Origin: Thermosulfurimonas sp. F29
GTDB lineage: Bacteria; Desulfobacterota; Thermodesulfobacteria; Thermodesulfobacteriales; Thermodesulfobacteriaceae
Length of the DNA: 64,000 bases
Reading direction: 5' to 3'
Assembly: GCF_019688735.1 (NCBI RefSeq)
Contig: NZ_JAIFYA010000001.1
Location: 372,001-436,000, forward strand
The notes under the pieces were generated by a model. It was not told the DNA's origin. It did no database searches and saw nothing but the letters and a program-made list of their open reading frames with translations. Below are positions 8,386 through 54,418 of this stretch, in pieces. The translations under genes and the position numbers were made by a program. Each line of letters begins with the position of its first letter. The stretch's first letter is position 1.

Positions 8386-8397
8386 GGTTTCCTCCCT

Positions 8398-9362: not shown

Positions 9363-9375
9363 CATTGTCCTCCAA

Positions 9376-9389: not shown

Positions 9390-9435
9390 CTCTTTTTCAG
9401 AATATCACAATCCTTTCATCCAGGCAAGTACCCGA

Positions 9436-9458: not shown

Positions 9459-9505
9459 CAAGAGGACATCAAGCGGGAAAAGAATACCTGTTAACTGACC
9501 GTAAA

Positions 9506-10813
9506 CTAATCGGTGTGTCCTTTAAGGATCCTGCGGGCCCGGGAGAAGACCTTGATGGCGCAGTATTCCCCGCACATGGTGCAGGCCTTACTCTTTGAGG
9601 CCCCACCCTCCATCCTATAACGACGGGCCTTCTCCGGATCAAGGGATAGCCTGATTTGAGCCTCCCAATCCAGTGCAGCTCGAGCTCTGGCCATCGCAAG
9701 ATCTTTTTCCCAAGACCCGGGAATTCCCTTAACCAGATCCGCCACATGGGCCGCGATCTTCGAAGCAATAACCCCTTCCCGCACATCCTCCACCGTCGGC
9801 AGACGCAGATGCTCAGCCGGCGTCACATAACAGAGGAAATCAGCCCCCGCAGCCGCCGCAAGCGCCCCTCCGATAGCCCCTACAATATGATCATAACCCG
9901 GAGCAATGTCCGTGGGAAGCGGTCCCAATACATAAAAGGGAGCACCGTGACAGAGCCGCTTTTCGATCTTGACATTGGCCTCGATCTGATCAAGCGGCAC
10001 ATGTCCAGGCCCCTCAATCATTACCTGCACCCCCGCCTCCCACGCCCTCTGGGTGAGCTCCCCGAGAACAATGAGTTCCTGAATCTGAGGACCATCCGTG
10101 GCATCCGCCAGGCAACCCGGGCGGATTCCATCCCCCAGAGAGAGCGTAACCTCATACTCCCGCGCAATCTCAAGCAGCCTGTCGAAGTACTCGTAAAGAG
10201 GATTCTCCCGGCGATTATAGATCATCCATTCCACAATAAACGAACCCCCACGGGAAACCACCCCCAGGATTCTTTCCTTCCTTTCCAGACGTTCGAGTAC
10301 GGCCCGTGTGATTCCGCAGTGAACGGTCATAAAATCCACACCATCCTCAGCGTGCCGGCGAATGGCCTCAAAAATTTCGTCCACAGTCATTTCCACAATG
10401 GACTTATGCTTGACCTCCACCGCCTCCACTGCGGCCTGATAAATGGGAACCGTGCCCAGGGGGACCGGACAGTGTTCCCGTATAAGCCGCCGGACCTCAT
10501 CTATAGGCCCTCCGGTAGAAAGATCCATTACCGTATCGGCTCCGGCAGAAAGGGCCACACGAAGCTTCTCAAGCTCCTTTTCCGGATCCGGAGCGTCACG
10601 AGAGGTGCCCAGGTTGGCGTTTATCTTGGTGCGCAGCCCCTCACCTATGGCACAGGGCTTCGCAAGCCTCACCTTCCGATTCCAGGGCACTACCACCCGC
10701 CCCGAAGCCACCCCCCGGGCTAGCTCCTCCGGCCCCACTCCCTCCTCCTCCGCCACGCGACGAATCTCCTCAGGAATCTCTCCCCGTTCCACCCTATCCT
10801 TCAGTGTCATCAT
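9506..10813 (-). CDS. thiC: Phosphomethylpyrimidine synthase
   Basis: A radical SAM-superfamily enzyme that converts aminoimidazole ribotide to HMP phosphate for thiamine synthesis. 435 residues is the short version lacking the long N-terminal extension. Signatures include RTKINANLGTS, DTVMDLSTGG, MIEGPGHVPL and LGPLPTDIAPGYDH. The C-terminal cluster motif is read here as CTMCGEYCAIK. Two ATG codons stand in tandem behind GAGGT. I looked for a THI-box riboswitch in the 160-base leader (10814-10973) and saw neither CTGAGA nor ACCTGA on the minus strand. Confidence 0.97.
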   Translation of the reverse strand: MMTLKDRVERGEIPEEIRRVAEEEGVGPEELARGVASGRVVVPWNRKVRLAKPCAIGEGLRTKINANLGTSRDAPDPEKELEKLRVALSAGADTVMDLSTGGPIDEVRRLIREHCPVPLGTVPIYQAAVEAVEVKHKSIVEMTVDEIFEAIRRHAEDGVDFMTVHCGITRAVLERLERKERILGVVSRGGSFIVEWMIYNRRENPLYEYFDRLLEIAREYEVTLSLGDGIRPGCLADATDGPQIQELIVLGELTQRAWEAGVQVMIEGPGHVPLDQIEANVKIEKRLCHGAPFYVLGPLPTDIAPGYDHIVGAIGGALAAAAGADFLCYVTPAEHLRLPTVEDVREGVIASKIAAHVADLVKGIPGSWEKDLAMARARAALDWEAQIRLSLDPEKARRYRMEGGASKSKACTMCGEYCAIKVFSRARRILKGHTD

Positions 10814-38435: not shown

Positions 38436-39668
38436 TTACATGGGCTCCACATGACTGGTGAACTTGAAGTGGAGCGAGGTGCGGTAGGTATCGTAGGCCA
38501 GGCGATAATCGTCGATGCTCTTTTCGGTGAACGGAATCTCACAGAGCTCAAAGAACCGCTCCCAGCCGATCCGCTCGGCCCACTCGCCCAGACGCTCGTA
38601 CTTGCGGGCATGCTGGGCATAAGTCTCCAGAATCTTCTTCACCCATTTTACCGTGGTCGGCCACCGCGGAGGCTCATTGGGGATGAAAGGAATCACCAGC
38701 TTGGAGAACTTGGGCGGAGAAATCCGGTTGGAGATCTTACCGCCCACCAGAATGGCAATTCCATCACCCTCACCGTCGGCCAGCGGCATGGCCGGACACA
38801 TGGTGTAGCAGTTTCCGCAGAACATGCACCGTTCCTTGTTCACCCGCACCGTCTTCTTCTTCTCCCCGTCGATCTCCACGGTGGCCGGCTTGATGGCCCC
38901 GAGAGGACAGGCCGCCACCACCAGAGGAATCTCGCAGACATTCTGGAGACGATCGTCCTCAATCAGGGGCGGCTTCCGGTGGATACCCAGAATGGCGATG
39001 TCAGAGCAGTGCACCGCCCCGCACATATTGAGACAGCAGGCCAGAGCAATACGAACCTGGGCCGGAAGCTTGTGGCTTCCGAAGTACTCAAAGAGCTCGT
39101 CCATCACCGCCTTCACCACACCCGAGGCGTCAATGGCCGGGGTGTGACAGTGCACCCACCCCTGCGTGTGCACGATGTTGGTCACGGAGGCCCCGGTACC
39201 CCCCACGGGGAACTTGTAAGACCCTCCGGGGTACTTCCGCCCTTTGAGGTCGTCGAGAAGGGCCCGGAGCTTCTCCTCGTCGGTTACATGAAACTCGATA
39301 TTGTTCCGCGTGGTCCACCGAACATAACCATCACAGTACTTGTCCGCAATCTCACAAACCTCCCGGATGTAGTCCGTGGTTACCAGACGCGGACAACCCA
39401 CCCGCACCACATAAACCACATCTCCGGTCTCGCTCTTATACTTTAGAACTCCGGGCTGGACAATCTCATGACTCACCCACTTACCGTAGTTCTTCTTGAT
39501 CACCGGCGGAAAGAACTGAGCATAATGGGGCGGACCGATATCGGTGATCCGGTTCTCCATGGGCTTCTGCGGATTATAAAGCTTCTCCGCCAGCTCCGGA
39601 TCGTAAGGCTTGCTGTAGATCTCATCAAGCTGCGTATTCTGAATCTCTTCATAAACCTTATCGGACAT
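38436..39668 (-). CDS. dsrB: Dissimilatory sulfite reductase beta subunit
   Basis: 410 residues. Partner of DsrA in the siroheme enzyme that reduces sulfite with DsrC as co-substrate. It carries the siroheme/[4Fe-4S] ligand motif [16 protein letters not shown] and a ferredoxin insert ([18 protein letters not shown]) with a second CPLGAI cluster element. Other signatures are [12 protein letters not shown] and [26 protein letters not shown] lies upstream of the ATG. It follows dsrA by 44 bases. Confidence 0.97.
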
Positions 39669-39712
39669 CTCAAACCTCCTTGCGTAAAATTTTCAATCCT
39701 TTCAACCCGGTA

Positions 39713-41011
39713 CTAGGCCGGGTGACGCTTACGGAACTCGGCCACATCGCGGTCCCAGCCGCCCTCAACCTCCTCCTCCTTCCAGAACACATAGGGGTTG
39801 GCCCGCGGCTCACGCACATGCTGCGGTATGGGCTTGAGCCCGAGAATGTCCACAATGAACCGGTTAAGACCGATACGCTGAATGAGCTCACCAAGACGCT
39901 CCCGGTTCTTTCCGTTCTCCATCCAGAAATCCCAGGTCTTCTCAATGAGTTCCTTCAGATTGTCATAAGGCGGCTCAAGCCTCATGAAGGGCACGATCAC
40001 CGTGGAAAGCTGAGCCCCCTCGAGAATCGGCGCCTTGGCCCCCATCAGAATGGTGGCCCCGGTATCGGTCCCCGGACGCAGGGCCTCGGGCATCACATTG
40101 ATGCAGTGCATGCACCGATTGCACTCCTTGTTGTTAATGTAAAGCTTCTTCTCCTTCTCGTCCCAGTGCATACACTGGGTGGGACAGAGGTCGATGACCT
40201 CTTTCTTGATGTCAAAGGGACCCCAATCCCTGTCGGAATGGGCCCCGGCGTTGGGCTTTAGCTCTCCGCCCACATAGGCCCGCACCGCCTCCTGATCGAT
40301 CCGGATGTCGTCGATCCAGGTCCCGATGATGGAAAGATCGGCCCGGGCTATGGCCGCCACGCAGTCGTTGGGACAACCGGAGATCTTGAACTTGAACTTG
40401 TAGGGAAAGGCCGGACGGTGCAGCTCGTCCTGATAGGTCATGGTGAGATCGTAACAGAGAGCCTGCGTGTCGAGACAGCTCCACTCGCACCGGGCCTTAC
40501 CCACACAGCACGAAGGAGTCCGCAGATTGGACCCCGATCCACCCAGATCCATGTTCATCTGATGGGTGAGATCAAAAAAGATGGGCTCCAGCTGCTCCGT
40601 CACGGTACCCAGGAGCACCAGATCCCCGGTGGACCCGTGAGTGTTGAGCATTCCGCTTCCCCGATGGTCCCAGATTTCACAGAGCTTCCGCAGCGCAGAA
40701 GTATGGTACCACTTGGAGGCCGGCTGATTCACACGAATAGTATGAAAGGCCCAGATGGCCGGAAACTGCTCCTGCTGGTCGGAGTACCGCCCGATCACGC
40801 CTCCACCGTAACCAAAAACCCCCACGATTCCACCGTGCTTCCAGTGCGTCTCCTTGTGCTTGTAAGAAAGCTCCAGCTGCCCCATCAGATCGAAACAGGC
40901 CTGCTTCTGATGCTTCTCCGCATAGGAATAAATGTCGTCCACAAAACTCGGCCAGGGGCCACCTTTCAACTCATCAACCATAGGCGTATCATGTTTCTTG
41001 ATTTCAGCCAT
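39713..41011 (-). CDS. dsrA: Dissimilatory sulfite reductase alpha subunit
   Basis: 432 residues. Siroheme/[4Fe-4S] ligands are in RTPSCCVGKARCEWSC and ISGCPNDCVAAI; the ferredoxin domain has CPTQCMHWDEK and ECNRCMHCINVMPEAL. GYGGGVIGRYSD and HGSTGDLVLLGT are typical DsrA segments. With DsrB it forms the cytoplasmic alpha2beta2 enzyme that is terminal in sulfate/sulfite respiration. The ATG at 41011 has AGGAGG five bases upstream; an upstream start at 41050 is less likely. A promoter-like region with an 18-bp palindrome lies just ahead. Confidence 0.97.
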   Translation of the reverse strand: MAEIKKHDTPMVDELKGGPWPSFVDDIYSYAEKHQKQACFDLMGQLELSYKHKETHWKHGGIVGVFGYGGGVIGRYSDQQEQFPAIWAFHTIRVNQPASKWYHTSALRKLCEIWDHRGSGMLNTHGSTGDLVLLGTVTEQLEPIFFDLTHQMNMDLGGSGSNLRTPSCCVGKARCEWSCLDTQALCYDLTMTYQDELHRPAFPYKFKFKISGCPNDCVAAIARADLSIIGTWIDDIRIDQEAVRAYVGGELKPNAGAHSDRDWGPFDIKKEVIDLCPTQCMHWDEKEKKLYINNKECNRCMHCINVMPEALRPGTDTGATILMGAKAPILEGAQLSTVIVPFMRLEPPYDNLKELIEKTWDFWMENGKNRERLGELIQRIGLNRFIVDILGLKPIPQHVREPRANPYVFWKEEEVEGGWDRDVAEFRKRHPA

Positions 41012-41053
41012 CACTCCCTCCTTAACTAAACAATTTTTCGGCTTTTCCACCCA

Positions 41054-41196: not shown

Positions 41197-43221
41197 TTAT
41201 CGTTCCACTTGTCCCAAAAACTTTTTAAGGGCCCGGAAGCTCCGGTGGTCCAGGACGAAGGCCACCCCTCCCCCGGCAAGAAGTGCCAGTCCAAGAAAAG
41301 GCCCCAGGGTCCGTAAAGACTCGGAAAAGGGTTTTAGGGAGGCTTCCTGCTGTCCCACCACTTCCGAAACAGCCAGCCCCCAGGGAGGTTTGCCGCTCAT
41401 GATAAGCAGATAGAAAGAAGTACTCTCTAAAATTCTCGTATCCGCAACCAGGACCTCCACCGATTCTCCATGAAGATTAAAAATCCGCTCCTCCCCTATT
41501 TGTGAGAGCATCGAAGGGACAAGTTTGCGAACCTCTCGCAGGGCGTAAAGGGGCACGGCCCAGAGACTTTCTCCCGACCTTACCAGGATAACCCGATTGA
41601 GAGCCGTCCCCAGAGGAAGATAAATGGATACGCGCGTTCCCTCTCCGGGTCGAGAGAAAAGTTCCACATATCCTCGCAGGTTTTCTATCTGTTGTTTCAC
41701 TATATCCAGTCCAAAACCGCGTCCGGAAAGAGAATCGGCCTCCTCCTTCGTACTGAATCCCGGAACAAATAGCGCCTCCTCCAGGCGATCCACCACAATC
41801 CCTCGCTCCCGCACCCTCTTATCCACCTGATCCCAGTCAATACCCCGTCCGTCATCCGAAACGGTAATCTTCAGCCAGTTCTGCTCGATCTCAAAGCTAA
41901 CCATTATGCGACCCTTTTCGGGCTTTCCGGCCCCCTTCCGCTCCTCAGCAGATTCCAGTCCGTGATCAAAGGCATTGCGCATCAGATGAACCAGAGCCGG
42001 CCAGATCTCCTGAAGTAAAATCCGATCAACCCTGATATCATGCCCCTCGAAAATAAGTTCCGCCTCCTTACCGGTGGCCCTGACCAGATCCCGAAAGAGT
42101 CGTTCCACTCTCACGGCCAGAGTACCCACGGGGACCAGACGAATACCCTGGATCTCTTCGTCCATGGTACGGGTTAGAACGGAAAGGTGAAGAAGAGCCT
42201 CCTCGAGTTTGACGCGCCATTCGCGGGGAAGATACCCCCTGAGCCCCGAGGCTATATCCTGCAAACGATAGCCGAGCGCACGCAGTTCCCCAACCATGGA
42301 AGACAGTCGCTCCATACGATCCGCGTCCACCCGCAGAGAAATCTCCGGAAGTCCCTCCTCCACCTTCTCTCTCCGCGGAAGCGTATCCGGACGAGGTTGA
42401 GGTATTCCTTCGGAAACAACCAACTCTTTCTTTGCGGACTCCTCTTCAACCTCCGAGGGCCCCGAAACGGTCTCCTCACCTGGACCGGCTTCTTTCTCCC
42501 GAGAAGAAAGCACCTCTATTTCCTGAGAAAGTTCGCTCAGGAATTCCTCCAGCTCCGGGGAAGACCCCCCCCGGGGGAAAAGAGCGGAAAGAGCCTCCCA
42601 GTAAGGTCTCCATCGAGCCTCCCGCCCCTCACCGATGGCCGACAGCTCCTTCTCGAACTCCTCCAGAAAAGAAACCATCTCCTCCAGATTGAGGTATCGC
42701 GCGGAATTTTTTATTCTTTCAATATGCTCTAGGATGGCGGGGACCCTGGAGGGTTCAGGGTCTTCCTCAGACAGCATGGCCGAAAGAAGGTTAACCTTTT
42801 CTTCCGCTAGCTCCATAAAGGCCTGATAAAGATCCTCGTCTTCCTTCCGCAATTCCTCCAGCGATGCTTTCAGGCGATCTATTCGCTCCTCCGGCATTGC
42901 GTTTGAAGGTTCGGGAAGGGAACCCTCCTCGTGTAGTCTCCTGAGGAGGGCCTTTACCTGATCCAGCTTAACAAATAACTCCTCCCTATCCCGGGCCGAA
43001 ATCCCCTCTTTTTCCAGGACACTTTCCATGTCATGAGCCAGACTGGCTATGGTTTCATAGCCCATATAGGCAGAGATACCCTTGAGGTTATGGGCTGCCC
43101 GCAGGGCCTCCCTCTGGATCTCCGTTTCCACAGGATTTTTATCCAGTTCCAGAAAGAGATGCTCAAGTTCCTGTATGTACTGAGAGGCCTCGGCTAGATA
43201 TTCTTTAAGAAACTCTTCCAT
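41197..43221 (-). CDS. CheA-like chemotaxis histidine kinase with a second, degenerate HPt domain
   Basis: 674 residues. Residues 1-105 form an HPt domain with phosphoacceptor His44 (AAHNLKGISAYMGY). Residues about 112-200 read like a second HPt, but the aligned position is Glu168 (ERIKNSARYLNL). A Pro/Glu-rich linker (240-290) is followed by the dimerisation helices. The ATPase has N box HLMRNAFDHGLE, G1 DDGRGID and G2 GRGFGLDIV. A CheW-like regulatory domain (about 540-674) closes the protein. No P2 domain is seen. It is expected to phosphorylate the receiver proteins encoded upstream. No chemoreceptor or CheW gene is in the window. It follows the DUF4388-receiver gene by 9 bases. Confidence 0.92.
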   Translation of the reverse strand: MEEFLKEYLAEASQYIQELEHLFLELDKNPVETEIQREALRAAHNLKGISAYMGYETIASLAHDMESVLEKEGISARDREELFVKLDQVKALLRRLHEEGSLPEPSNAMPEERIDRLKASLEELRKEDEDLYQAFMELAEEKVNLLSAMLSEEDPEPSRVPAILEHIERIKNSARYLNLEEMVSFLEEFEKELSAIGEGREARWRPYWEALSALFPRGGSSPELEEFLSELSQEIEVLSSREKEAGPGEETVSGPSEVEEESAKKELVVSEGIPQPRPDTLPRREKVEEGLPEISLRVDADRMERLSSMVGELRALGYRLQDIASGLRGYLPREWRVKLEEALLHLSVLTRTMDEEIQGIRLVPVGTLAVRVERLFRDLVRATGKEAELIFEGHDIRVDRILLQEIWPALVHLMRNAFDHGLESAEERKGAGKPEKGRIMVSFEIEQNWLKITVSDDGRGIDWDQVDKRVRERGIVVDRLEEALFVPGFSTKEEADSLSGRGFGLDIVKQQIENLRGYVELFSRPGEGTRVSIYLPLGTALNRVILVRSGESLWAVPLYALREVRKLVPSMLSQIGEERIFNLHGESVEVLVADTRILESTSFYLLIMSGKPPWGLAVSEVVGQQEASLKPFSESLRTLGPFLGLALLAGGGVAFVLDHRSFRALKKFLGQVER

Positions 43222-43230
43222 ATACCACCC

Positions 43231-44460
43231 CTAACCCAGCCTGATCAGATCCTCTAATTTCAGGGAATCTTCTGCCAGTTTTTTAAAAGACCCGGGAAGG
43301 TCTGGAGCCGGAGAACTTTCCGGATCCCGTATCCATATCTTCCCCGGGCATACACCCTTTACATCCACCGACTTGACTCCAGAAAATACCACCGTCTCCA
43401 CGCAACCCTCCATTGCGTTCCAGAACCTTTCGGGATCTCCGTTCGGTTCAAGGACCGGACCCTTCTTAAAGGCTGGTATCCCGGAAGAAATGTATAAAGT
43501 TCCTCCCCGTACAATAGTCGTAGCCTTAACATAAACCGTCTCCCAGGGTAGCCTCTCCCGCAATACCTCGGCCAGATCCTCCGCAAGCTCTGGGCATCCG
43601 TCCACCACCCAGATGACTGCCTCCTCGGGGACCCAGGTCTTTTGTCCCAGAAATTCCAGAGCCTCCCCGAATCCCCCGATCCCGGAAAGAATTACAGTGA
43701 AGTTTCCGGGACGGGACGAGCTCTCCCGTCCGGGTTTTTCCCTCACAGGCAACCTGTAACGCCTTAACCTATTCACCCTAACACGAGCCGCTTTCTCAAG
43801 TAATTGAGCCAGATGCTCGGCCTGCCGGGAGCTCTTTTTACAGAAAGCCGTGGCTCCCAGGAGAAGAAGGGAAAGACCCTCCGGGCCACATCGAGAACTG
43901 GTGAGCACTATCGGAGCGGGATGCTGTATCATTAGATATTTGAAGGCTTTCGACCCGGTGAGCCCGGGAAGGTTGAGATCCAGAAGGATAACATCCGGAT
44001 TGTATTCCGCCGCAGCCCAGAGGGCTTCCTCACCATTGGAAAGCACCTCAAGAAGGTGTAGATTCGGTGAAGATTCTATAATTTCCGAAAGAGTCCGGGC
44101 CGCAAGGGGCGAGTCTTCCACGAGAAGTACAGAGAGAGCGTCTCCCTTCCCCTTTTCGCTTTGATGAGTGGCCGCTTCCATGAGAAGAGCCTCCACACTC
44201 CCCAGTTCACCAGTGGACAGAATCTCTTTAGGAACAAAAGAGACCTCTCCATCCTGCCAGCTCAGAATCTCGAAAAAGGCCTCCTTTCCTTGCCGTTCGG
44301 GGGTTTCGGCTCCCACCACTTTTCCCTGGCGGAAATAAATCCTTCCTTCGCGCTGGCGGAAAGATACGGTCAGAACCCCGCTCTGGCCCGAAAGAGCCAC
44401 GGCCTGAATCAAGGCTTCAGGGCTGAGCCCCTCAATCTGCCCCTTCAGCCCGGAGACCAT
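43231..44460 (-). CDS. DUF4388 - receiver - CheB-like pseudoenzyme
   Basis: 409 residues. Residues 1-105 resemble DUF4388 (LKGQIEGLSPEALIQAVALS, GVLTVSFRQREGRIYFRQGK), a domain often found in MglA/MglB-associated and Frz-like signalling proteins. A receiver follows (SVLLVEDSPLAARTL, Asp in VILLDLNLPGL, VLTSS). The C-terminal 150 residues follow the CheB methylesterase layout (VILSGIGGFGEALEFL, GGTLYISSG) but lack the Ser-Thr-Gly nucleophile loop, the catalytic His and the Asp-Gly pair. It should therefore be a signalling scaffold, not an esterase. The start at 44460 has GGAAGGAGGGG upstream. Confidence 0.85.
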   Translation of the reverse strand: MVSGLKGQIEGLSPEALIQAVALSGQSGVLTVSFRQREGRIYFRQGKVVGAETPERQGKEAFFEILSWQDGEVSFVPKEILSTGELGSVEALLMEAATHQSEKGKGDALSVLLVEDSPLAARTLSEIIESSPNLHLLEVLSNGEEALWAAAEYNPDVILLDLNLPGLTGSKAFKYLMIQHPAPIVLTSSRCGPEGLSLLLLGATAFCKKSSRQAEHLAQLLEKAARVRVNRLRRYRLPVREKPGRESSSRPGNFTVILSGIGGFGEALEFLGQKTWVPEEAVIWVVDGCPELAEDLAEVLRERLPWETVYVKATTIVRGGTLYISSGIPAFKKGPVLEPNGDPERFWNAMEGCVETVVFSGVKSVDVKGVCPGKIWIRDPESSPAPDLPGSFKKLAEDSLKLEDLIRLG

Positions 44461-45496
44461 CTTTTCCCCTCCTTCCCGGCCAAAATGAAAGAAGCTTGGC
44501 CACCTTCTCCAGGGGAAGTTCGGGATAACCTCCCCCCTCGGCAAAATAAATAGGGGCCTCCGGATAAAGACAGTGACGCCGATGGATCACCAAAACTTCT
44601 CCGCCCATATTCCGAATCTCCGCCAGCCCTACCTTACCCTTTTCAAATCTTCCCGAACCCACCAACGCCATAATTCCGGGACCGAGAAGCGTGGAAAGCT
44701 CCAGCAATAAAGCATCGAAAAGATCCTCTCCCGTAACCCCAGGAGGGATGGGTACCTTTTCCGCCTGAAGTTCGCCTCCGCCGGTCTCAAAAAAACGCCA
44801 CCAGTGCTCCGTCCCCATCAGATAAATAAACCCCTCTCTGAGGGATTCTCCCTCTTCAAGCATTTTCACCGGCAGATCGAGTCCCTCAGAAAGGTATTCG
44901 GCAAAGGCCTCGATCAGCCTTTCCGGAAGTCCCAGGCACCAGAGCTGAGCCGTTCGGATTTCTTCGAGATACTGAATAAGGCGTAAAATAAGGGTATAAC
45001 TCCCCTCTTTCCCCAGCCCTACAATCAAGCTACGGGCGGGAGCCGCGGTGAGCAGGGACCTTTTACAGAGACTCCCTCGGGGTATCAGCCGAATATTTTC
45101 CAGCTCCACCGAGGCCACCCTCTTCAACTTTTCGCAAAAAATTTTTTCAAACTCTCCACCCCTTTCCCAGAGGCCTCCAGGTTTGGGAAGAAAATCCAGC
45201 GCCCCGTAACGAAGAGATTCAAAGGCTATCCTGGAACCCTCTTTGGTCAAGGCACTCACCATCAAGACAGGCATGGGCTTTCTTACCATCAGTTTCTTGA
45301 GTAAACTGAGACCGTCCATGGCCGGCATGTTTACATCCAGGGTACAGAGATCGGGATCAACTTTTTCTATGAGATTCAACGCCTCCACCCCGTTGGCGGC
45401 CTTACCCACCGGAATAAACCCCGGAAAAGAAAGAATGGCCTTTTCCAGAAGCCTGCAGATGAGCGGCGAATCATCAATTATCAGGACCTTCTTCAC
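44432..45496 (-). CDS. Receiver - CheB-like pseudoenzyme
   Basis: 354 residues from a GTG with GGGAG upstream (an ATG at 45538 is also in frame). The N-terminal receiver is CheB-like (KKVLIIDDSPLICRLLEKAI, TLDVNMPAMDGLSLLKKLM, VSALTKEGSRIAFESLRYGALDFLPKPGG). The C-terminal half keeps the CheB outline (SLIVGLGKEGSYTL, GIMALVGSGRFEKGKVGL, then EAPIYFAEGGG), but the Ser, His and Asp catalytic positions are absent. Sequence before the CheB-like part is normal length. It overlaps the next gene by 29 bases and diverges from mglB, with 80 bases between starts. Confidence 0.87.
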   Translation of the reverse strand: MKKVLIIDDSPLICRLLEKAILSFPGFIPVGKAANGVEALNLIEKVDPDLCTLDVNMPAMDGLSLLKKLMVRKPMPVLMVSALTKEGSRIAFESLRYGALDFLPKPGGLWERGGEFEKIFCEKLKRVASVELENIRLIPRGSLCKRSLLTAAPARSLIVGLGKEGSYTLILRLIQYLEEIRTAQLWCLGLPERLIEAFAEYLSEGLDLPVKMLEEGESLREGFIYLMGTEHWWRFFETGGGELQAEKVPIPPGVTGEDLFDALLLELSTLLGPGIMALVGSGRFEKGKVGLAEIRNMGGEVLVIHRRHCLYPEAPIYFAEGGGYPELPLEKVAKLLSFWPGRRGKDGLRAEGAD

Positions 45497-45576
45497 CGAT
45501 CTCTCCCTCTCTCCCCTTGATTTTTTACCATTATCCATATTATCCTTAGCATGTCAAATAATGAGGAGGAATTTAA

Positions 45577-45960
45577 ATGAGTGTCCTCATCCTTACCCCC
45601 GAAAAGGTATCCAAACTGGAACGCCTCCTTCAGGATTATCTCATCTCCATAGGGGTTAATCTGGCCCTCCTCATAGATGAAGCCGGAAACATCCTGGTGT
45701 CTGTGGGGCAGAATGAGGATGTGGATGTCACCTCTCTCGCCGCTCTGGCTGCCGCCAATTTCGGAGCCACCAATCAGATTGCCAGGCTCTTAGGAGAAGA
45801 CGATTTTTCCATTCTCTATCACAAGGGTAAAAAAGATAATATCCACCTGAGCAAGATCGGTAAAGACATTATCCTGGTCACGGTGTTTACCGATGAGGTT
45901 CCCCTGGGTCTGGTTCGCCTCAAAGCCAGTCAGGTAGCCAAAGAAATTCAAGTGCTCTGA
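45577..45960 (+). CDS. mglB: Roadblock/LC7 protein, MglB-like
   Basis: 127 residues with the roadblock fold (RLLQDYLISIGVNLALLIDEAGNILVSVG, LAALAAANFGATNQIARLLGE, VPLGLVRLKASQVAKEI). MglB is the GTPase-activating partner of the Ras-like MglA and marks the lagging pole in Myxococcus. The next gene is MglA, one base away. AGGAGG precedes the ATG. Confidence 0.92.
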   Translation: MSVLILTPEKVSKLERLLQDYLISIGVNLALLIDEAGNILVSVGQNEDVDVTSLAALAAANFGATNQIARLLGEDDFSILYHKGKKDNIHLSKIGKDIILVTVFTDEVPLGLVRLKASQVAKEIQVL

Positions 45961-45961
45961 A

Positions 45962-46570
45962 ATGGCCCTAATAGACCTGAAGAAGAAAGAGATATACTGC
46001 AAAATCGTCTATTACGGTCCCGGACGGTCCGGAAAGACCACCAATCTTTTGTATATTTACAATGCGCTTCCGGAAAAATTCAAGGGGAAATTGCTCACCA
46101 TTGAAACCAAAGGGGAAAGGACTCTTTTTTTCGACCTGCTCCCCCTGAGCCTGGGTAAAATAAAGGATCTGGACATACGACTTCAGCTCTATACCGTTCC
46201 CGGACAGGCCATCTATAAACCGGCCCGCAAGATCGTACTCAAGGGTGCTGACGGAATCGTCTTTGTGGCGGATTCTTTACGCATCCGTCGGGAAAAAAAC
46301 AAGGAAAGTCTGGAGGACCTCCGGGAACATCTTCTGGAATGGAACATGGATATCCGGGAAGTTCCTCTGGTGTTTCAATACAATAAAAGAGATCTTGCCA
46401 AAATGGGCATCCCCATTCTTTCGGTGGAAGAACTGCAGAGGGATCTAAACAACCACCTTCAGGCTCCGTATTTTGAGGCCGTAGCCCCCAAGGGAATCGG
46501 AGTTTTTGAAACTCTGAAGGCTATAAGTAAAATGAGCGTTAGATATATAGCTCAAAAATATTTAAAGTAG
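45962..46570 (+). CDS. mglA: Ras-like GTPase, MglA-like
   Basis: 202 residues. P-loop GPGRSGKTTNLLYIYNAL (residues 19-36), switch region TLFFDLLPLSLG, G3 VPGQ in YTVPGQAIYKPARK, and G4 NKRD in QYNKRDL: the MglA pattern. It cycles between GTP and GDP under MglB control and sets cell polarity and the site of type IV pilus or gliding machinery. The neighbouring PilB-like ATPase and CheA-like kinase fit that role here. Confidence 0.95.
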   Translation: MALIDLKKKEIYCKIVYYGPGRSGKTTNLLYIYNALPEKFKGKLLTIETKGERTLFFDLLPLSLGKIKDLDIRLQLYTVPGQAIYKPARKIVLKGADGIVFVADSLRIRREKNKESLEDLREHLLEWNMDIREVPLVFQYNKRDLAKMGIPILSVEELQRDLNNHLQAPYFEAVAPKGIGVFETLKAISKMSVRYIAQKYLK

Positions 46571-46578
46571 GGGCTACC

Positions 46579-47877
46579 ATGGAAGAAAAAAAGATTGACG
46601 AACTTGAACTGGAAAAGGAAGTCGAAAAGGCGCTGGATGATATCTTTAAAGGAGCCAGAAAGACCGAGCTGAAAGAAGAAGAAATCGAGGGATATTCCTT
46701 ACTCGAACCGGTGGTGGAGGGAGAAGAAGCCTTCAAGCGAGATCTTGAGGAGCTGGTGGGGGAAATCCTTACGATTGAGTGGGAGATTATTCCTGAAATT
46801 GCCGAAAAAGCCGCCGACAAGTGCCGAAGGCTACAGCAGTATAAGCTGGATTCGGACAATCTAAAACTGATCAGACTCCTGGAAAACCTGTTAACCGAAG
46901 TTCGTTCACCGGAAAAGATTACGGCCCAGAAGCTCGAAATTCTCAAAAAGGCGGGGGATCTTCTTTATAAACACAACTTCGAAAATCTGGAAGTCTCCTC
47001 GGAGATTGCCGATCTGGAAAAGGGGCTGAAAGCTGCGGAGCAGGAAGAAAAGGAGCTGGAGCTTGAGCTGGAACTCGAAACCCAGGAGGAAGTTCCCCGG
47101 GAAGAGGTCGTGCCCACGGTTTCCCCCCCTTCGCCCGTTTCCCCTCCCTCGGAGGAACCCCGGATTTCGGTTTCTCCCCCTTCTTCTTCGACACGCCCCC
47201 CTGAAACAGAAAACCTCATAAGCCAACTCCTAAAGGACTATGAGCGCCTGGTAGCCCTCGACGAACTGGCCAGACTGGGGCGCCGTAAGGCCCTGCGTAA
47301 ACTGCTATTGAAAGCCCAAAACGAATTACGGGAAACGCTCCTCCGGGTGGACAAAAAATACGAAGCCCTTCTTTCCAAAAAAGAGGAGGAAATCCGGAAC
47401 TTTGTGGCTTCCAAGGAATCCAGAAAGACCGTGCCGGAGATCAAAGAGGCCTTCTGGTGCCGCACCTCACTGCGCGCCCTTTTAATCCCCGAGGATGAGG
47501 TGGCCTTTGCCGGTGAGATAGAAGACCACTGGCGCCCTCACCTTCTTGAGGGTATTTTTCCTTTGAGGCTTCTCAAGGGAAAAGGGCTGTGGAACAGTTT
47601 GTTCGGAAAGGTTCGCCCGAAGCTGCGGGGCTCCCTTTCGGAAAAGGAAGAAAAGGAATTGCGAAAAATGGTCTTCAAGACCAACAAACTATTAACGCAC
47701 GAAAGTAAGCTTATCCTTCTGTGGAAGGATAATCACTCGCTGGCCCTTCTGGTGGAGGACTTCAGGCTGGTTACCCTGGACTCCAATCTGGAATGGATCC
47801 CGGCTGAGCCTCCGTTTTTGGCCAAAACCAGATTCGAAGATGAGGAGGTCTATCTATTTTCGGTAACCCGGGCCTAG
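46579..47877 (+). CDS. Acidic coiled-coil protein of unknown function in the mglBA-pilB operon
   Basis: 432 residues. The N-terminal 150 are strongly helical and acidic (LELEKEVEKALDDIF, LEKGLKAAEQEEKELELELE). A Pro/Ser linker (SPPSPVSPPSEEPRI, PPSSSTRPPE) covers about residues 176-213. A basic helical segment (RLGRRKALRKLLLKAQNEL) and a mixed C-terminal domain (WRPHLLEGIFPLRLLKGKGLW, SLALLVEDFRLVTLDS) follow. It has no signal peptide or transmembrane segment. I do not recognise the family; a linker between MglA and the PilB-like ATPase is one possibility, from position only. Confidence 0.85.
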   Translation: MEEKKIDELELEKEVEKALDDIFKGARKTELKEEEIEGYSLLEPVVEGEEAFKRDLEELVGEILTIEWEIIPEIAEKAADKCRRLQQYKLDSDNLKLIRLLENLLTEVRSPEKITAQKLEILKKAGDLLYKHNFENLEVSSEIADLEKGLKAAEQEEKELELELELETQEEVPREEVVPTVSPPSPVSPPSEEPRISVSPPSSSTRPPETENLISQLLKDYERLVALDELARLGRRKALRKLLLKAQNELRETLLRVDKKYEALLSKKEEEIRNFVASKESRKTVPEIKEAFWCRTSLRALLIPEDEVAFAGEIEDHWRPHLLEGIFPLRLLKGKGLWNSLFGKVRPKLRGSLSEKEEKELRKMVFKTNKLLTHESKLILLWKDNHSLALLVEDFRLVTLDSNLEWIPAEPPFLAKTRFEDEEVYLFSVTRA

Positions 47878-47878
47878 T

Positions 47879-50200
47879 ATGCTGGACAGGGAACTCAGGA
47901 ATTACATAGAAAACCGTCTCAAGGAAGCCGAACTTTACGCCAAACAGGGCCTGGTGGACGAGGCCCTTCAGGTCTACAGGGAACTGCGCAACCTGGTCTC
48001 CGAGGAGGAGAACGGCCTGAAGCAGGAGATCCAGAAACGCATCTTCGAGCTCGAGGCCTTCAAGGGGGTGGTCTCGGAGGAAATCACGGGGGAGGAATCC
48101 CCCTTTGAGGAACGCCTGAAAAAAGCCTTCATCTTGAAGGATGGTGCCTTCTATCAGCAGGCCATAAAGATCCTGGAGGAACTCCTCGAAGAAAAACCCG
48201 CCCTCGAGGTGTATCGAGCGCTGGCGGAATGCCTAGAGGCCATAGGACATTTCGAAAAGGCCGCCAGTATTCTCAAAAAGGCCCTGAAAGAAGTCTCTTT
48301 TACACCGGAAATAAAAAATGATCTCCTAAATCTAAAGAAAAAATTGGCCGAAAACCTGGAAAAGGCTTACGAATTCGATGAAGCTCTTTTTATTTATCAG
48401 TCCCTTATCAAGGAAATTCCGGAAGAGAAAGAGGCCTTTCGGGAAAAAATAGAATTCCTGAAAGCCATCGTATCCTCCTGTGGGAGATTAAAGTTCCTCC
48501 TAAAGAAAAAGGTGGTAACCCCCTCCGTATGTAAAGAAGCTGCCGAAATCGCCAGAGAAACCGGCGAGAGTGTGGAACAGGTTCTTATAGAAAAATTTCA
48601 GATACCCAAGAGTGAAATCGGGGAGGCTCTGTCCCGGTTTTACAATTGCCCATTTTGGGAATTTTCCGGAGAACCTCCAGAGACCAAACCCCGGGCCCTT
48701 GAAGGGGTAAAGGAATCCTTTTTGCGTCAGCTGGTGGTGGCCCCCCTGGAAACCGACGAGGGAAAAATCCTTCTGGTTACCGACAATCCCTTCAATCTGG
48801 ACAAAATAGAACAGGCCAAAAAGATCCTGGAACTGCGGGACTTTGAGATTGCCGTCGGCATCAGGGAAGACATTCTCAAGCTTTTAGACTTTTACTACGG
48901 AAAATTTCAGGGTATCGAGGTCCCCTCCATCTCCGAGCTGGAAGTTGTACCCGAGGAGGAAGAGACCTCCGAGGAAGAGGAGGCCCTTCCCGAGGATCAG
49001 GAAAGTGTGGTGGTTCAGCTGGCCAATTACATCCTGGAGGAGGCTTACAACCGGGGGGCCTCGGACATCCACATTGAGAGTCTTACCGGACGCCGCGGGG
49101 CGCAGATCCGGTTCCGCATAGACGGGGAGTGCATTCCCTTCCAGACCGTGCCCTATTCTATGAAGCGTCCCCTGGTCTCCCGGTACAAAATCATGGCCGG
49201 TCTGGACATCGCCGAAAAGCGCCTCCCCCAGGACGGAAAGATCAAGTTCCGCACCCGCACCGGCAAGGTCTTCGAGGTCCGGGTGGCCACCATTCCCACC
49301 ATAGAAAACAACGAGGATGTGGTGATGCGGATCCTGGGAGGGGTCCAGGCCCGGACCCTGGAGGAGATCGGGCTGCGCCCGGAGGTGCTCGAACAGTTCA
49401 AAAAGTTACTGGAGATGCCCTACGGATTGATCCTGGTGGTGGGGCCCACGGGCTCCGGTAAGACCACCACCCTGCACGCCGCCCTGCACTACATCAACCG
49501 CCCCAGCAAAAAGATCTGGACCGCCGAGGACCCCGTGGAAATCGTGCAGGAGGGACTGCGTCAGGTCCAGGTCAAACCGAAGATCGGTCTAACCTTTGCC
49601 CGGGTCCTCCGGGCCTTCCTCCGGGCGGACCCGGATGTGATCATGATCGGCGAGACCCGGGACGAGGAAACCGCTCATACCCTCATAGAGGCCTCCCTCA
49701 CCGGGCACCTGGTCTTCTCCACCCTCCATACCAACAGTGCCCCGGAAACCGTAACCCGGCTTCTGGGCATGGGCATAGATCCCTACAACTTCGCCGACGC
49801 CCTGCTGGGGGTGCTGGCCCAGCGACTGGCCAAACGACTGTGTCCGGACTGCAAGGAGCCCTACGAACCCACCGAAAAGGACATTGAGGAACTCATCTTC
49901 GAGTACGGGAAACATCCCCTGAAAACTCTAACCGAGGAAGACATACGCCGGGCCACCCTTTATCGACCCGTGGGCTGTGGTCGTTGCAACCACACCGGAT
50001 ACCGGGGACGGGTGGCCCTCCACGAACTGCTGGTCCCCAACGACGAGGTTCGGGAACTCATCGTCAAGGCCGCCCCGGTGCACGAGATCCGGGATGCGGC
50101 CATGCGCAACGGAATGTTTACCCTCAAGCAGGACGGAATCCTGAAGGTGCTTTCCGGGGAGACGGATCTCAAACAGGTACGGGCGGTCTGCGTGCGCTGA
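47879..50200 (+). CDS. PilB/GspE-type secretion ATPase with N-terminal TPR-like extension
   Basis: 773 residues. Residues 1-190 are helical repeats of TPR character (LVDEALQVYRELRNL, AIKILEELLEEKPALEVYRALAECLE, HFEKAASILKKALKE). The N-terminal GspE domain lies at about 200-330. The ATPase core has Walker A GPTGSGKTT at 522-530, the Asp box, Walker B DPDVIMIGETRDEETAHT and the His box. It ends with the tetracysteine zinc motif CPDCKEPY ... CGRCNHTGYRG. It powers extension of type IV pili or a related machine. Four cysteines and the extension make it longer than the usual 560-residue PilB. Its stop abuts that of the convergent DUF4340 gene. Confidence 0.93.
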   Translation: MLDRELRNYIENRLKEAELYAKQGLVDEALQVYRELRNLVSEEENGLKQEIQKRIFELEAFKGVVSEEITGEESPFEERLKKAFILKDGAFYQQAIKILEELLEEKPALEVYRALAECLEAIGHFEKAASILKKALKEVSFTPEIKNDLLNLKKKLAENLEKAYEFDEALFIYQSLIKEIPEEKEAFREKIEFLKAIVSSCGRLKFLLKKKVVTPSVCKEAAEIARETGESVEQVLIEKFQIPKSEIGEALSRFYNCPFWEFSGEPPETKPRALEGVKESFLRQLVVAPLETDEGKILLVTDNPFNLDKIEQAKKILELRDFEIAVGIREDILKLLDFYYGKFQGIEVPSISELEVVPEEEETSEEEEALPEDQESVVVQLANYILEEAYNRGASDIHIESLTGRRGAQIRFRIDGECIPFQTVPYSMKRPLVSRYKIMAGLDIAEKRLPQDGKIKFRTRTGKVFEVRVATIPTIENNEDVVMRILGGVQARTLEEIGLRPEVLEQFKKLLEMPYGLILVVGPTGSGKTTTLHAALHYINRPSKKIWTAEDPVEIVQEGLRQVQVKPKIGLTFARVLRAFLRADPDVIMIGETRDEETAHTLIEASLTGHLVFSTLHTNSAPETVTRLLGMGIDPYNFADALLGVLAQRLAKRLCPDCKEPYEPTEKDIEELIFEYGKHPLKTLTEEDIRRATLYRPVGCGRCNHTGYRGRVALHELLVPNDEVRELIVKAAPVHEIRDAAMRNGMFTLKQDGILKVLSGETDLKQVRAVCVR

Positions 50201-51130
50201 TCAGAAAAGTCTTTTGAGCTTTCGCACCACCTCGGCCCTGACCCGGTAAACATAACTTCCCTTTTTTACATAGTAAAATTCCCTTCCCCCCCGGGAGAAA
50301 AGGAGTCTCCAGGGCCGGGTCTCCGTCTCCACCTCAAGGATCCCCTCCTCGGTTCCGAATTTCTGCGGAGAAACCACCTCCTCCGCGAGAAGGGGAAAAA
50401 TCCTCCGAAGACGCCTGGTTACCTCCTCCCCGGAAAGGACGCGCTTTTTGCCTCCGGCCTCAAGGGTCCAGCCCTTCTTTTCCCTTTTTAGAAGAAAAAG
50501 GGGGCTACCCCTCCAGAAAAAGGCCATCTTTCGCAGGTTCCCGGGATCGAGGCTGAGGACCGTTTTATCCACCCAGGGGTCTATCGACGGAGCAGCGGGT
50601 TTGTCGGACCAGATCTCGAAGCGGGCAAGGAGGTTCTCCGGGATCAGGTAGATTTCTTCCCGCCCGTGGAGACGCACGAAACAGCTCTCCCAGTAAGGCC
50701 CCCTCTTCCCCACCAGCAGATGGAAGAGTTCCCGGCCCTGCCGGAATCCGGCTATGTGCAGGGCGCTTTCCGGGGTGAGATCAAATCGGGCCTCGTAATC
50801 CTTTCCGCTGGCCCTCTCCTCTCCGGAAAGGGAGGAAAGATCGGAAAGAAGCCTCTCGACCAGGGCCTCCCTGGCCGGGTGAGGGAAGTTCTCCCTTCGG
50901 GAGGGTCCCCATACCTCCCACCGGCCTCCGGAAAATCTGATAACCAGTTTCCGCGTGGAGTTGCCCAGCCAGGCCCGTATCTCGTCCGCATCCTTCCAGT
51001 CCCGATGCCCCAGACGCGTGAGGAGGGCCTCTCTCATCCCTTCGGGACGCTCGGCCCGCTGAACCACCAGGTACATCACCGTGAGAATGACCAGGAGACC
51101 GAGCAAAAAGACCAGGTTACGGGGACTCAC
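50201..51130 (-). CDS. DUF4340-like protein of the Gld-type ABC operon
   Basis: 309 residues with a single N-terminal helix (NLVFLLGLLVILTVMYLVVQ) and a mainly beta periplasmic domain (WKDADEIRAWLGNSTRKLVI, RFDLTPESALHIAGF). DUF4340 proteins are regularly encoded beside GldF/GldG-like ABC permeases, as here, and may bind the transported ligand. The GTG start has GAGGAGG upstream and overlaps the permease gene by 14 bases. The function is unknown. Confidence 0.85.
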   Translation of the reverse strand: MSPRNLVFLLGLLVILTVMYLVVQRAERPEGMREALLTRLGHRDWKDADEIRAWLGNSTRKLVIRFSGGRWEVWGPSRRENFPHPAREALVERLLSDLSSLSGEERASGKDYEARFDLTPESALHIAGFRQGRELFHLLVGKRGPYWESCFVRLHGREEIYLIPENLLARFEIWSDKPAAPSIDPWVDKTVLSLDPGNLRKMAFFWRGSPLFLLKREKKGWTLEAGGKKRVLSGEEVTRRLRRIFPLLAEEVVSPQKFGTEEGILEVETETRPWRLLFSRGGREFYYVKKGSYVYRVRAEVVRKLKRLF

Positions 51131-53510
51131 CGGAGACCTCCTCGAAAAATTTCCCGCGGCGGGCCCGGCGGCGCCAGAAGATCACCGTTCCGAAGAGAAT
51201 CCAGAAAAGGGCCGGACAAAAGACCACCACGATCCGCCACAGCAGACGCTCCGAAGCGGGAATCGGAGGGAGATAACGAACCGGTTTGAGTTTGGCCCGC
51301 AGGGAGAGAAGTTCGCCGCCCAGCGCAAGGGCCTCGGCGGCGTTGGCCAGAAACAGGGCGTTGTCAAAGATGTCGATGATACCGTCCGCGAACATGGCCC
51401 CGGAACCCACCACCAGAAGCCTTCCGGAACGAGCCTCTTTTCCGGAGGCCTCCGCCCCGGACCCCTCTGCGGTCTTCTTTTTCCCGGAGGACTTTTCCCC
51501 GGGCCAGGGGGGAGCGGTGCCGTTAAAGGGGAGCGGAAAACGCCCCTCGAGAAGAACCGCCAGGGGATAGGCCCCGGTCCTGGCCGGGGGTTTCAGGTCC
51601 GCCTCCGAGAGGGGCCCCGGCTCCGCCTTCTCGGTCCAGGCCCCGGCGGAGGAGGTGAAAAGCACCGTGGCCTTGAGCCCGAGCGCCTTTATTTTTGAGG
51701 AATCCAACCGGAGCGGGCTTCCCCAGAGATAAAGCAGGGCCTCAAGCCCGTGCGTGAGAGGAGAGGTGCGATTCATCTGAGGGGGCAGGATCTGAACCTG
51801 CATGGGGAAGTTCACCGGAACATGCACCAGGGCCCGGAAAAGCCCCATTTCCCTTTCCTGGGAGATGGCCATGGTAACCATCTGACGGTCCAGGAGAAAC
51901 TCCCTGCGGATCTCCAGGCCGTAGGTGCGAAGGAGCTTGTCCAGGGAAAGGTCCTGGGGGAGCGGAGTGGCCAGGATCTCTCCGGAGGGGCCGGTCTGGT
52001 AGGAGAAACGGGCCGCGGAGGTGGCCACCAGGACGGCGCCGCCCCGATGGAGAAAACGCCCGATCTCAAACAGCTGCCGGTCGTTCAGTTTTCCCGGAGA
52101 GAGGATCACCAGGAGCCGGGTCTTTCGCGGGAGCCCCTCCTTTTGGGTGAGAGGGGTTTCCCTGACCTCGAGCCCCAGGGCCCGGAAAAGCTCACGGGCC
52201 GTGCGGAACCCCCCGGAAAGGAATTCGTTCCCGGTAAGAAGGGCCACCACGGGTTTCCGGGGAAGGGTCAACTTGTAAATACGCGATACCAAATCGTACT
52301 CCAGGGTGGAAAGGGAGTCCGGAACGATCTGAGGGATGATCTCCTCGGGTTTGTCCAGGTAGGAAATAGCGATGGCGCTATAAACCCTCCGCACGCTCAC
52401 CTTATCCCTTTCGATGGTCTGAACGGCGAAGGGTTCCACCCCGCGATCGCGGAGTTTTCTCTCCAGTTCCGGATCCCGGCCGGGATCCACCACCGCGTAG
52501 CGCACCCGGGGGTTCAGGGCGGAAAGCTCCTCCAGAAGGGCCCGCACCTCCACCGTGAGATTGCGCATGGCCGGGGGCAATTTCTCCGGGGAGGACACAT
52601 AATAGGTAATCCGCAGCGGGGCCTTAAGACGGGAAAGGACCTTTCTGGTGACCGGAGAGAGGGTGTAAAGCTTTTCCTCGGTAAGATCCACGCGGGGCAG
52701 TCGCATATCCGCCAGAATGGCGTTGGTCACCACGGCCACCCCCAGCCACACCACCACCGAGGGATAAAACAGTTTCCGCCGGAAATGGCGCAGATACCCG
52801 GCCACGGTGAAGTGGTTAAGAGTCAGGAAAACCCCCGTGTAGATCAGGAAGAAGAGGGGCTCGCGCAGGGGCACCACCCCTTTCAAAAAGGGGGAAAGAT
52901 GGGGGATTATGCCCAGGGCGTTACGCAAGAAACTTCCCGCTCCCGGAAGCCAGGAATCCAGGGAGGAGGAGACCAGATCGGTTCCGGCCAGGATGCAGGC
53001 CAGCCCGGCCACCGAGGTGATCACGAAGGAAGCGATCTGGTCCTCAAAGAGGGCGGAGACGAAAAGCCCCAGGGCCAGGTAGAAGGCCAGAAGCAGGGCC
53101 GCACCGAGGTAGCCGGCCAGCAGAGCCCCCCCGTCCGGATCTCCCAGCACCGCGAGCATCAGGGGTATGATCAGCGTGCCTCCCAGCACGGTGAGGGCAA
53201 AAAGATAGGTACCCAGGAACTTTCCCGCCACCAGGGCCCGGGTCGAGAAGGGAAAGGATAGAAGCAGGCCCAGCGTCCCGCTTTTACGCTCCTCGGCCCA
53301 TACCCGCATGGTGAGGGCGGACACGAAAACCAGGAGGATCACCGGGAAGGGCTCAAAAAAGGCGCGCATGTCGCAAACGCGCGCCAGGAAAAAGGTGTTC
53401 ATGTAAAGGCCGTTCACCACCAGCAAAAAGGCCACGGCAAAGATGTAGGCCAGAGGAGAACGCAGGTATCCCAGATATTCCTTTTTGAGGATCACCCACA
53501 CCCCGCGCAT
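51117..53510 (-). CDS. ABC-2 permease fused to a GldG-type auxiliary domain
   Basis: 797 residues. Residues 1-235 are an ABC-2-type permease with about six helices (LKKEYLGYLRSPLAYIF, WAEERKSGTLGLLLSFPFS). From residue 240 a further helix leads into a periplasmic GldG/DUF7088-like region (LRITYYVSSPEKLPPAMRNL, LPRKPVVALLTGNEFL, RLLVILSPGKLNDRQLFEIGRFLHRGG) and a C-terminal helix with a basic tail. In Bacteroidetes, GldF and GldG are separate; here they are one chain. It partners GldA-like ATPase upstream. Exported substrate unknown; no Bacteroidetes gliding genes are present. Confidence 0.9.
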   Translation of the reverse strand: MRGVWVILKKEYLGYLRSPLAYIFAVAFLLVVNGLYMNTFFLARVCDMRAFFEPFPVILLVFVSALTMRVWAEERKSGTLGLLLSFPFSTRALVAGKFLGTYLFALTVLGGTLIIPLMLAVLGDPDGGALLAGYLGAALLLAFYLALGLFVSALFEDQIASFVITSVAGLACILAGTDLVSSSLDSWLPGAGSFLRNALGIIPHLSPFLKGVVPLREPLFFLIYTGVFLTLNHFTVAGYLRHFRRKLFYPSVVVWLGVAVVTNAILADMRLPRVDLTEEKLYTLSPVTRKVLSRLKAPLRITYYVSSPEKLPPAMRNLTVEVRALLEELSALNPRVRYAVVDPGRDPELERKLRDRGVEPFAVQTIERDKVSVRRVYSAIAISYLDKPEEIIPQIVPDSLSTLEYDLVSRIYKLTLPRKPVVALLTGNEFLSGGFRTARELFRALGLEVRETPLTQKEGLPRKTRLLVILSPGKLNDRQLFEIGRFLHRGGAVLVATSAARFSYQTGPSGEILATPLPQDLSLDKLLRTYGLEIRREFLLDRQMVTMAISQEREMGLFRALVHVPVNFPMQVQILPPQMNRTSPLTHGLEALLYLWGSPLRLDSSKIKALGLKATVLFTSSAGAWTEKAEPGPLSEADLKPPARTGAYPLAVLLEGRFPLPFNGTAPPWPGEKSSGKKKTAEGSGAEASGKEARSGRLLVVGSGAMFADGIIDIFDNALFLANAAEALALGGELLSLRAKLKPVRYLPPIPASERLLWRIVVVFCPALFWILFGTVIFWRRRARRGKFFEEVSGESP

Positions 53511-54418
53511 CACGCACTCCTCACCAGCTTCAGGAATAGATCCTCAAGGGAAAGCCTTTCCGGATGACACTCCCGCACCCGCCAGCCCCGCTCGCACAGC
53601 ATACAGGCCAGATCCGTCTTCTCCTCCTCCAGGATCACCCGGTATTCCCCCTCTCTCAGGCGTTTCACCTCGCGCACCCCGGGAAGACCCTCGGTTTCCG
53701 GAGGCTCCCCGGCGGTGCGCACCCGGTAGACCGGCCGGGGATAGATCCGGCGGTAAATCTCCTCCCGGGTGCCGGAGGCCACCTCCCGTCCCTGATTCAG
53801 GATGAGAACGCGATCGGCCAGGGCCTCCACCTCCTGAAGGATGTGCGTGGAAAAAATGATCGCCTTTTCCCGGGCGAGTTCCCGGATAAGACCGCGCATT
53901 TCGGCAATCTGGAGGGGATCGAGCCCGGTGGTGGGCTCATCGAGGATCAGCACCGGAGGATCGTGGATCAGGGCCTGGGCCAGACCCACCCTCTGCCGGA
54001 ATCCCTTGGATAGCTCCCCTATGGGCCGGTGGAACACCCCCGCGAGTCCGCAGGCCTCGACAACCCACTCCATCCTCTCCCTCTTTTGACCTCCCGAAAG
54101 GCCCCGGGCCTCCGCCACGAAAGACAGGTATTCCCCCACCTCCAGATAATCGTAAAGAGGCGGATTTTCGGGAAGGTAGCCGAACCTGGATCGGGCCTCC
54201 TCGGGCCTGGCCATCACATCCACCCCGGCCAGCACCACCCTGCCGCCGGCGGGAACGATCTGGGTGGAAAGGATCTTCAGGATGGTGGTCTTTCCGGCTC
54301 CGTTAGGTCCGAGAAGGCCGAGGATCTCTCCGGAGGAGACCGTAAAGGAGACCCCTCTCACGGCGGGTCTCCCCCCGTAGGACATCTCGAGCCCCCGGGC
54401 TTCCACCAGGACACCCAT
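53510..54418 (-). CDS. ABC transporter ATP-binding protein, GldA-like
   Basis: 302 residues. Walker A GPNGAGKTT (37-45), Q-loop YLPENPPLY, signature LSKGFRQR (136-143), Walker B VLILDEPTTGLDP and the His switch in STHILQEVE. The C-terminal 80 residues (VYRVRTAGEPPETEGL) form the extra domain seen in ABC-2 exporter ATPases. The pair with the downstream permease by ATGA-type overlap indicates a cytoplasmic motor of one exporter. Confidence 0.94.
   Translation of the reverse strand: MGVLVEARGLEMSYGGRPAVRGVSFTVSSGEILGLLGPNGAGKTTILKILSTQIVPAGGRVVLAGVDVMARPEEARSRFGYLPENPPLYDYLEVGEYLSFVAEARGLSGGQKRERMEWVVEACGLAGVFHRPIGELSKGFRQRVGLAQALIHDPPVLILDEPTTGLDPLQIAEMRGLIRELAREKAIIFSTHILQEVEALADRVLILNQGREVASGTREEIYRRIYPRPVYRVRTAGEPPETEGLPGVREVKRLREGEYRVILEEEKTDLACMLCERGWRVRECHPERLSLEDLFLKLVRSA

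Follow-up and report, generated by a model that had tools for sequence, protein, structure and literature searches.

Frz signaling employs a CheA with a fused receiver (FrzE) and a double-receiver output of the FrzZ type, and Pil-Chp signaling employs a multi-Hpt ChpA together with the single-receiver proteins PilG and PilH. Frz acts on MglA via RomR (PMC3441718), and the Pil-Chp system of Pseudomonas exerts chemotaxis-type control over pilus extension (PMC10519157). In Myxococcus, SgmX is a TPR effector of MglA-GTP that takes PilB to the pole (PMC7519303, PMC11580455); direct contact between SgmX and PilB was not detected there (PMC11580455). The part of a survey of prokaryotic small GTPases drawn on here records that some mglA genes have PATAN genes nearby and that the mglA of Myxococcus lies away from the genes of its partners (PMC4316618).

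Here we describe a locus from Thermosulfurimonas sp. F29, contained in a stretch of 64,000 nucleotides (the window), in which chemosensory genes face an mglB-mglA-X-pilB operon. With a probability of roughly two in three, we read this locus as a reduced version, of Thermosulfurimonas type, of an old pathway of the Thermodesulfobacteriota in which chemosensory signaling controls the extension of type IV pili through MglA. This reading is based on gene content, conservation, dead CheB domains, the predicted fold of protein X, and co-occurrence of genes. Full-text searches, for which subscription papers were mostly out of reach, returned no description of the array.

Organization of the locus

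The locus consists of seven intact open reading frames, with cheA and two receiver genes on one side and the divergent mglB-mglA-X-pilB on the other (Table 1), at the positions and with the protein families given in the original prediction. The genome that holds them is 2.35 Mb in size, and its close relatives include Thermosulfurimonas and Thermodesulfatator. The mglA product matches MglA proteins of solved structure at 2.5e-62, and both the arginine finger R53 and Gln82 are present in the sequence and in the alignment columns, as expected of an MglA. MglB, encoded beside mglA, has the Roadblock domain of an MglB GAP and matches the NCBIfam MglB model at 2.6e-17, below that model's cut-off.

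Table 1. Features of the locus, with positions in the window or, for parts of protein X, in the protein.
Feature	Position	Strand	Description
cheA	41197..43221	-	Hpt, HATPase, single CheW domain, without receiver (Pfam)
RR4388	43231..44460	-	PATAN (DUF4388), receiver, degenerate CheB (Pfam)
RR-CheB	44432..45496	-	receiver, pseudo-CheB; ORF extends to ATG 45538
sigma-70-like site, che half	45530..45557	-	TTGACA-16-GATAAT, 11/12 consensus match only
mglB	45577..45960	+	Roadblock GAP; Robl_LC7 2.2e-12
mglA	45962..46570	+	small GTPase, Arg53 and Gln82 kept
protein X gene	46579..47877	+	predicted kinase-less CheA-like (AF2 and Foldseek/VIA; family HMM)
X N-terminal motif E..aIDdiF	about residues 12-25		
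X pseudo-Hpt/P1 bundle	about residues 46-160		starts with ILtIEWEI
X coiled coil	about residues 208-280		
X CheW/P5-like domain	about residues 287-432		
pilB (whole)	47879..50200	+	TPR, MshEN and T2SSE
PilB N-terminal TPR region	47879..48480	+	first ~90 aa with invariant E16, A17, Y20, E28
PilB core	48481..50200	+	MshEN without RLG/Q c-di-GMP residues, and T2SSE ATPase

For RR-CheB, the GTG at 45496 is most likely the start rather than the ATG at 45538, and a purine-rich, Shine-Dalgarno-like run stands in front of it. The GTG lies 80 bases from the mglB start, and if it is used, the spacing of 80 bases claimed originally is correct. The sigma-70-like site of the che half lies directly upstream of this GTG, and such sites number 5 in the region versus 4.2 expected by chance. 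The che half and the mgl half likely have separate promoters.

Beyond the cluster, dsrAB (38436-41050, minus strand) is a constant neighbor, and it also adjoins pilB in genera that lack MglA. Positions 50201-54418 (minus strand) hold genes for a DUF4340 protein, a long ABC permease, and an ABC ATPase. In most relatives these genes and pilB are arranged tail-to-tail; the set resembles a Gld-type ABC operon.

Conservation across the Thermodesulfobacteriota

The order mglB-mglA-X-pilB was found in the MglA-positive Thermodesulfobacteriales searched, wherever the contig was long enough, flanked by dsrAB and, in most relatives, by the ABC/DUF4340 operon. A divergent che set opposite mglB recurs in four families, f49 (L153/L171), f84 (L159/L173), f56 (L161/L175), and f62 (L154/L177), where the order from mglB is HDOD, two receiver-CheB genes, PATAN-receiver-CheB, a CheY-like receiver, and CheA. 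The CheY-like ORF is seen in f49, f56, and f84 and is unclear in f62; in the latter (L177), dsrAB (7627-10161) comes after cheA, as it does in the window. Compared with these four families, the window keeps two receiver-CheB proteins and CheA in unchanged order and is without HDOD, the third receiver-CheB, and CheY. The cluster is not a local one, and the window has a reduced copy of it. Since gene order and content are repeated in other families, the arrangement is not due to chance, and the colinear sets in f49, f56, f62, and f84 led us to reject the idea that the che half is a genus-specific add-on. A gene set that fell apart in related genomes had been considered as a possible refutation of the original prediction; both the set and the packing of signaling, MglA/MglB switch, and pilus-extension ATPase into one locus proved to be conserved.

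The mgl-X-pilB genes are also found without che genes in many lineages, and for this reason the che half can be modulatory at most. In Thermodesulfatator and family f89 only an HDOD gene stands opposite mgl-X-pilB, HDOD being the commonest divergent partner, and in T. dismutans S95 the che genes next to mglB have decayed to remnants of RR-CheB and of the CheA P5 domain, interrupted by stop codons. The pairing of the two halves recurs in four families, but they are separable in Thermodesulfatator and T. dismutans S95. Natural experiments are available as well: where mglBA is missing, X is missing too, along with the first TPR of PilB, and in a single species the che half and the receptor were lost together.

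The chemosensory half and its probable receptor

In motif alignment, the cheA product has an intact Hpt histidine and intact N and G boxes, which together with its CheW domain identify it as a CheA kinase. It sits on a long branch that the tree cannot place with other cluster CheAs, and its orthology consequently rests on position and architecture; the cluster CheA of f49 has the same domain set (one CheW domain, no receiver). The canonical CheA of the genome differs from both in its domain set, and the canonical che cluster (CheA-CheW-CheR-CheB-CheY) lies separately on contig C3 among flagellar-looking genes.

Across families, the receiver-CheB proteins fall into three types, each forming a separate clade. 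RR4388 joins the PATAN-receiver-CheB clade of other families (94/89), whose members have a recognizable CheB domain, and its own C-terminal tail has a very weak CheB likeness. RR-CheB was assigned to type II by motif only and is not firmly placed in the tree. In alignment to Salmonella CheB, Ser164, His190, and Asp286 correspond to Gly, Gly, and Lys in RR-CheB, which does not have the Ser-His-Asp methylesterase triad. By this alignment its CheB domain is a pseudoenzyme, which along with the degenerate CheB of RR4388 bears out the earlier suggestion. The catalytic His is missing in every cluster homologue aligned, and loss of the enzyme activity therefore probably dates back to the ancestral cluster.

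The genome encodes 11 MCP domains. A lone cheW-mcp-PhnD-like operon lies on contig C2 (L131; MCP at 693738-695261 of C2 in the window genome, G000), unlinked to cheA, and the same operon is found in all five genomes that have the cluster cheA (G000, G247, G248, G250, and G251); its CheW was seen in none of the other relatives searched. In f49, an MCP and a CheW are encoded immediately beside pilB, and in f62 an MCP is. In each of these five genomes, all from the genus of the window, the f49 MCP matches the lone-operon MCP at 1e-59 to 1e-61, with the next-best MCP at 1e-20 to 1e-23, and the BLAST similarity (26-30%) extends over the full length, including the sensor region. Searches for the f49-type MCP in T. 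dismutans, Thermodesulfatator, and f89 gave weak matches only (1e-21 to 1e-25), and T. dismutans S95 has no receptor operon between nikR and the gene that follows it. The assignment of the lone-operon MCP as the putative receptor for the cluster CheA is well supported, and the joint presence of MCP and cheA in five genomes, all from one genus, may go back to a single event. The claim that receptor, CheW, and CheR are lacking is thus right for the locus but wrong for the genome, which has the lone operon and the che cluster on C3, and a likely cognate CheW-MCP operon in trans speaks against the proposed self-contained switch.

Protein X

Sequence-only matches for protein X were meaningless, while a fold search gave a clear result. 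Modeled with AF2, the window protein has a pLDDT of 79, and this model and that of a 24%-identical homologue have pTM values of 0.35-0.39. The first 18 Foldseek matches of the window model are all CheW or CheA P5 domains (best E 1.5e-4), and CheA P1 domains come next, mixed with other helical bundles. VIA comparison with CheA P5 gave a Z of 9.9 and an rmsd of 2.5 over 106 residues; the alignments to the helical bundle by itself carry little weight, because unrelated designed bundles score equally. For the homologue, the first 17 matches are CheW or P5 and CheA P1 appears again, although the two models draw on a common alignment pool and are not fully independent. Weak matches to CheW came from one distant homologue, with a Pfam hit at the expected place (E 0.018), and from hhalign (probability 25%). 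Neither Pfam nor the AF2 model contained a kinase domain, and the alignment of the bundle had no conserved His that could be phosphorylated. X therefore looks like a kinase-less CheA-like protein, with a predicted CheW/CheA-P5 domain and a CheA-P1-like bundle. The original label of unknown coiled coil has to be revised accordingly, and an orphan coiled coil without known fold was rejected.

A family profile was built from the N-terminal half of 17 sequences, its motif having been spotted by eye beforehand. The 2252 genes of the fetched loci gave 84 matches, of which 78 lie directly downstream of mglA, in counts where loci fetched twice count twice and loci had been chosen for containing mglA or pilB. 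One of the 6 matches not directly after mglA is a CheA, at 2.7e-4. The family signature is E..xIDxLF, then ILSLEWEI, and an X-type gene is present in 29 of 80 named mglA loci. In family f39, the X-type gene adjoins pilB several kb from mglA (L164 10069-11451, L165 5318-6937, and L167 5975-7441), with PATAN-like and other genes between mglA and the X-type gene.

PilB and its TPR region

In a sample of 247 genomes from across the phylum, 22 encode a PilB with an N-terminal match to the TPR profile over its full length. MglA is present in 20 of these 22 versus 118 of the 225 others (Fisher p 5e-4, a guide only because the genomes are not independent). In 19 of the 20 genomes with both, mglA shares contig and strand with pilB and lies within 9 kb upstream of it; the distance is within 2.3 kb in 13 genomes. 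The two genomes with TPR-PilB and no MglA are G205, which is cut by a contig edge, and G074, a complete genome in which the exception looks real. G231 has no MglA, and its PilB is without the first ~60 positions of the TPR profile. PilB is about 670-695 aa long in the MglA-less genera g2, g3, and g172. The match of the six g2/g3 genomes in the sample starts only at profile position 87-99, which means that their PilB is without the first ~90 aa and thus without the first TPR, where the invariant E-A-Y-E residues lie. In some MglA-less genomes pilB still adjoins dsrAB, so mglB-mglA-X was probably lost or never gained there; only one or two events may account for its absence.

The c-di-GMP-binding motif of MshEN domains is RLGxx..Q (PMC5013675). 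In the window PilB, the Gly and Gln residues are missing from both copies of this motif, which makes control by MglA rather than c-di-GMP plausible. Besides PilB, the genome encodes two PilT-type ATPases as well as PilM, and a retractable pilus is therefore likely. T2SSE-type ATPase matches number 15 in this genome (contigs C2, C4, and C5) versus 4-7 in most relatives, and some of them may belong to conjugation systems or mobile elements. A frameshift or sequencing error divides the pilB of T. autotrophicus S606 (L039 10824-13171) into two ORFs, and in G204 (L044) pilB is followed immediately, to about 16503, by genes for another CheA-like kinase, of 644 aa, and for a receiver protein of 472 aa.

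A proposed pathway and its alternatives

In the pathway that we favor, a membrane dCache MCP would act with its CheW and a PhnD-like binding protein, all three from genes elsewhere in the genome, to set the activity of the cluster CheA, which would phosphorylate the receiver domains of RR4388 and RR-CheB. The dead CheB domains may then serve as binding modules, making the receiver-CheB proteins phospho-controlled. X would couple the receptor array, through its CheW-like end, to MglA and PilB, through its N-terminal motif and pseudo-Hpt end, and MglA-GTP, limited by MglB, would recruit or activate PilB via the TPR of PilB. Phosphotransfer, every binding step, polarity, and the motility output are what we infer from the genomic evidence. 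As the TPR lies within PilB and its presence follows that of MglA, it may do an SgmX-like job in one chain.

That the two halves are neighbors by descent only, with the che genes serving swimming or another output and mgl-X-pilB working independently, would fit the occurrence of mgl-X-pilB without che in Thermodesulfatator and T. dismutans and the likely separate promoters. We nonetheless judge this improbable, given that the canonical che cluster sits separately on C3, that divergent pairing with colinear genes is found in four distant families, and that X itself is predicted to be CheA/CheW-like. PATAN regulators are reported to act directly on PilB in cyanobacterial phototaxis, and this parallel, together with a PATAN-receiver architecture beside pilB, raises the prospect that the PATAN-receiver protein acts directly on PilB with MglA as a parallel input. 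TPR-PilB covaries with MglA, however, and relatives that retain mgl-X-pilB either lack PATAN genes or have them unlinked, so that we regard direct PATAN action as unlikely.

The output may also be something other than motility, namely piliation tuned for adhesion, DNA uptake, or signaling, possibly with HDOD-type regulation. Pili of thermophiles serve DNA uptake too, and HDOD is the partner most often found opposite mgl-X-pilB in relatives; the likely retractable pilus weighs against this reading, though it does not decide the output, and we consider such an output rather doubtful.

For the MglA-dependent pathway, the presence of switch, adaptor, and motor in one operon makes the MglA-PilB link testable with few purified thermostable proteins. 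Only tentatively do we propose that X is the founder of a group of kinase-less CheA-like adaptors, with genes placed directly behind mglA in many lineages, that join chemoreceptor arrays physically to a Ras-like GTPase and to a PilB whose own TPR would be the MglA effector, without a relay of the SgmX/RomR type. If this is true, receptor, GTPase, and motor would form a direct complex.

Comparison with known systems

The locus shares with the MglA-SgmX-PilB system of Myxococcus the MglA/MglB switch, a TPR element, and PilB as the putative target (PMC7519303, PMC11580455). None of SgmX, FrzS, and SopA is encoded at the locus; instead of the stand-alone 14-TPR protein SgmX, the TPR here is fused to PilB as its N-terminus, in a single operon with X in between. 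CheA-type signaling into an MglA/MglB module would be common to this locus and to Frz (PMC3441718). The Myxococcus mglA lies away from its partner genes, whereas here they are together, and the outputs are receiver-pseudoCheB proteins, the likely receptor a dCache MCP, and the CheA one without a receiver, none of which corresponds to Frz. Chemotaxis-type control over pilus extension would likewise be shared with Pil-Chp (PMC10519157), from which the locus differs in domain content, having a one-Hpt CheA, an MglA module, and no single receivers of the PilG/PilH type. The part of the small GTPase survey drawn on here does not describe the CheA-receiver-MglBA-X-PilB array, the dead CheB set, or the X family (PMC4316618). 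Finally, X resembles FrzB, a divergent CheW, in being a CheW-type protein with a putative non-coupling role (PMC6952110), and it adds to this a P1-like bundle and an MglA-linked motif.
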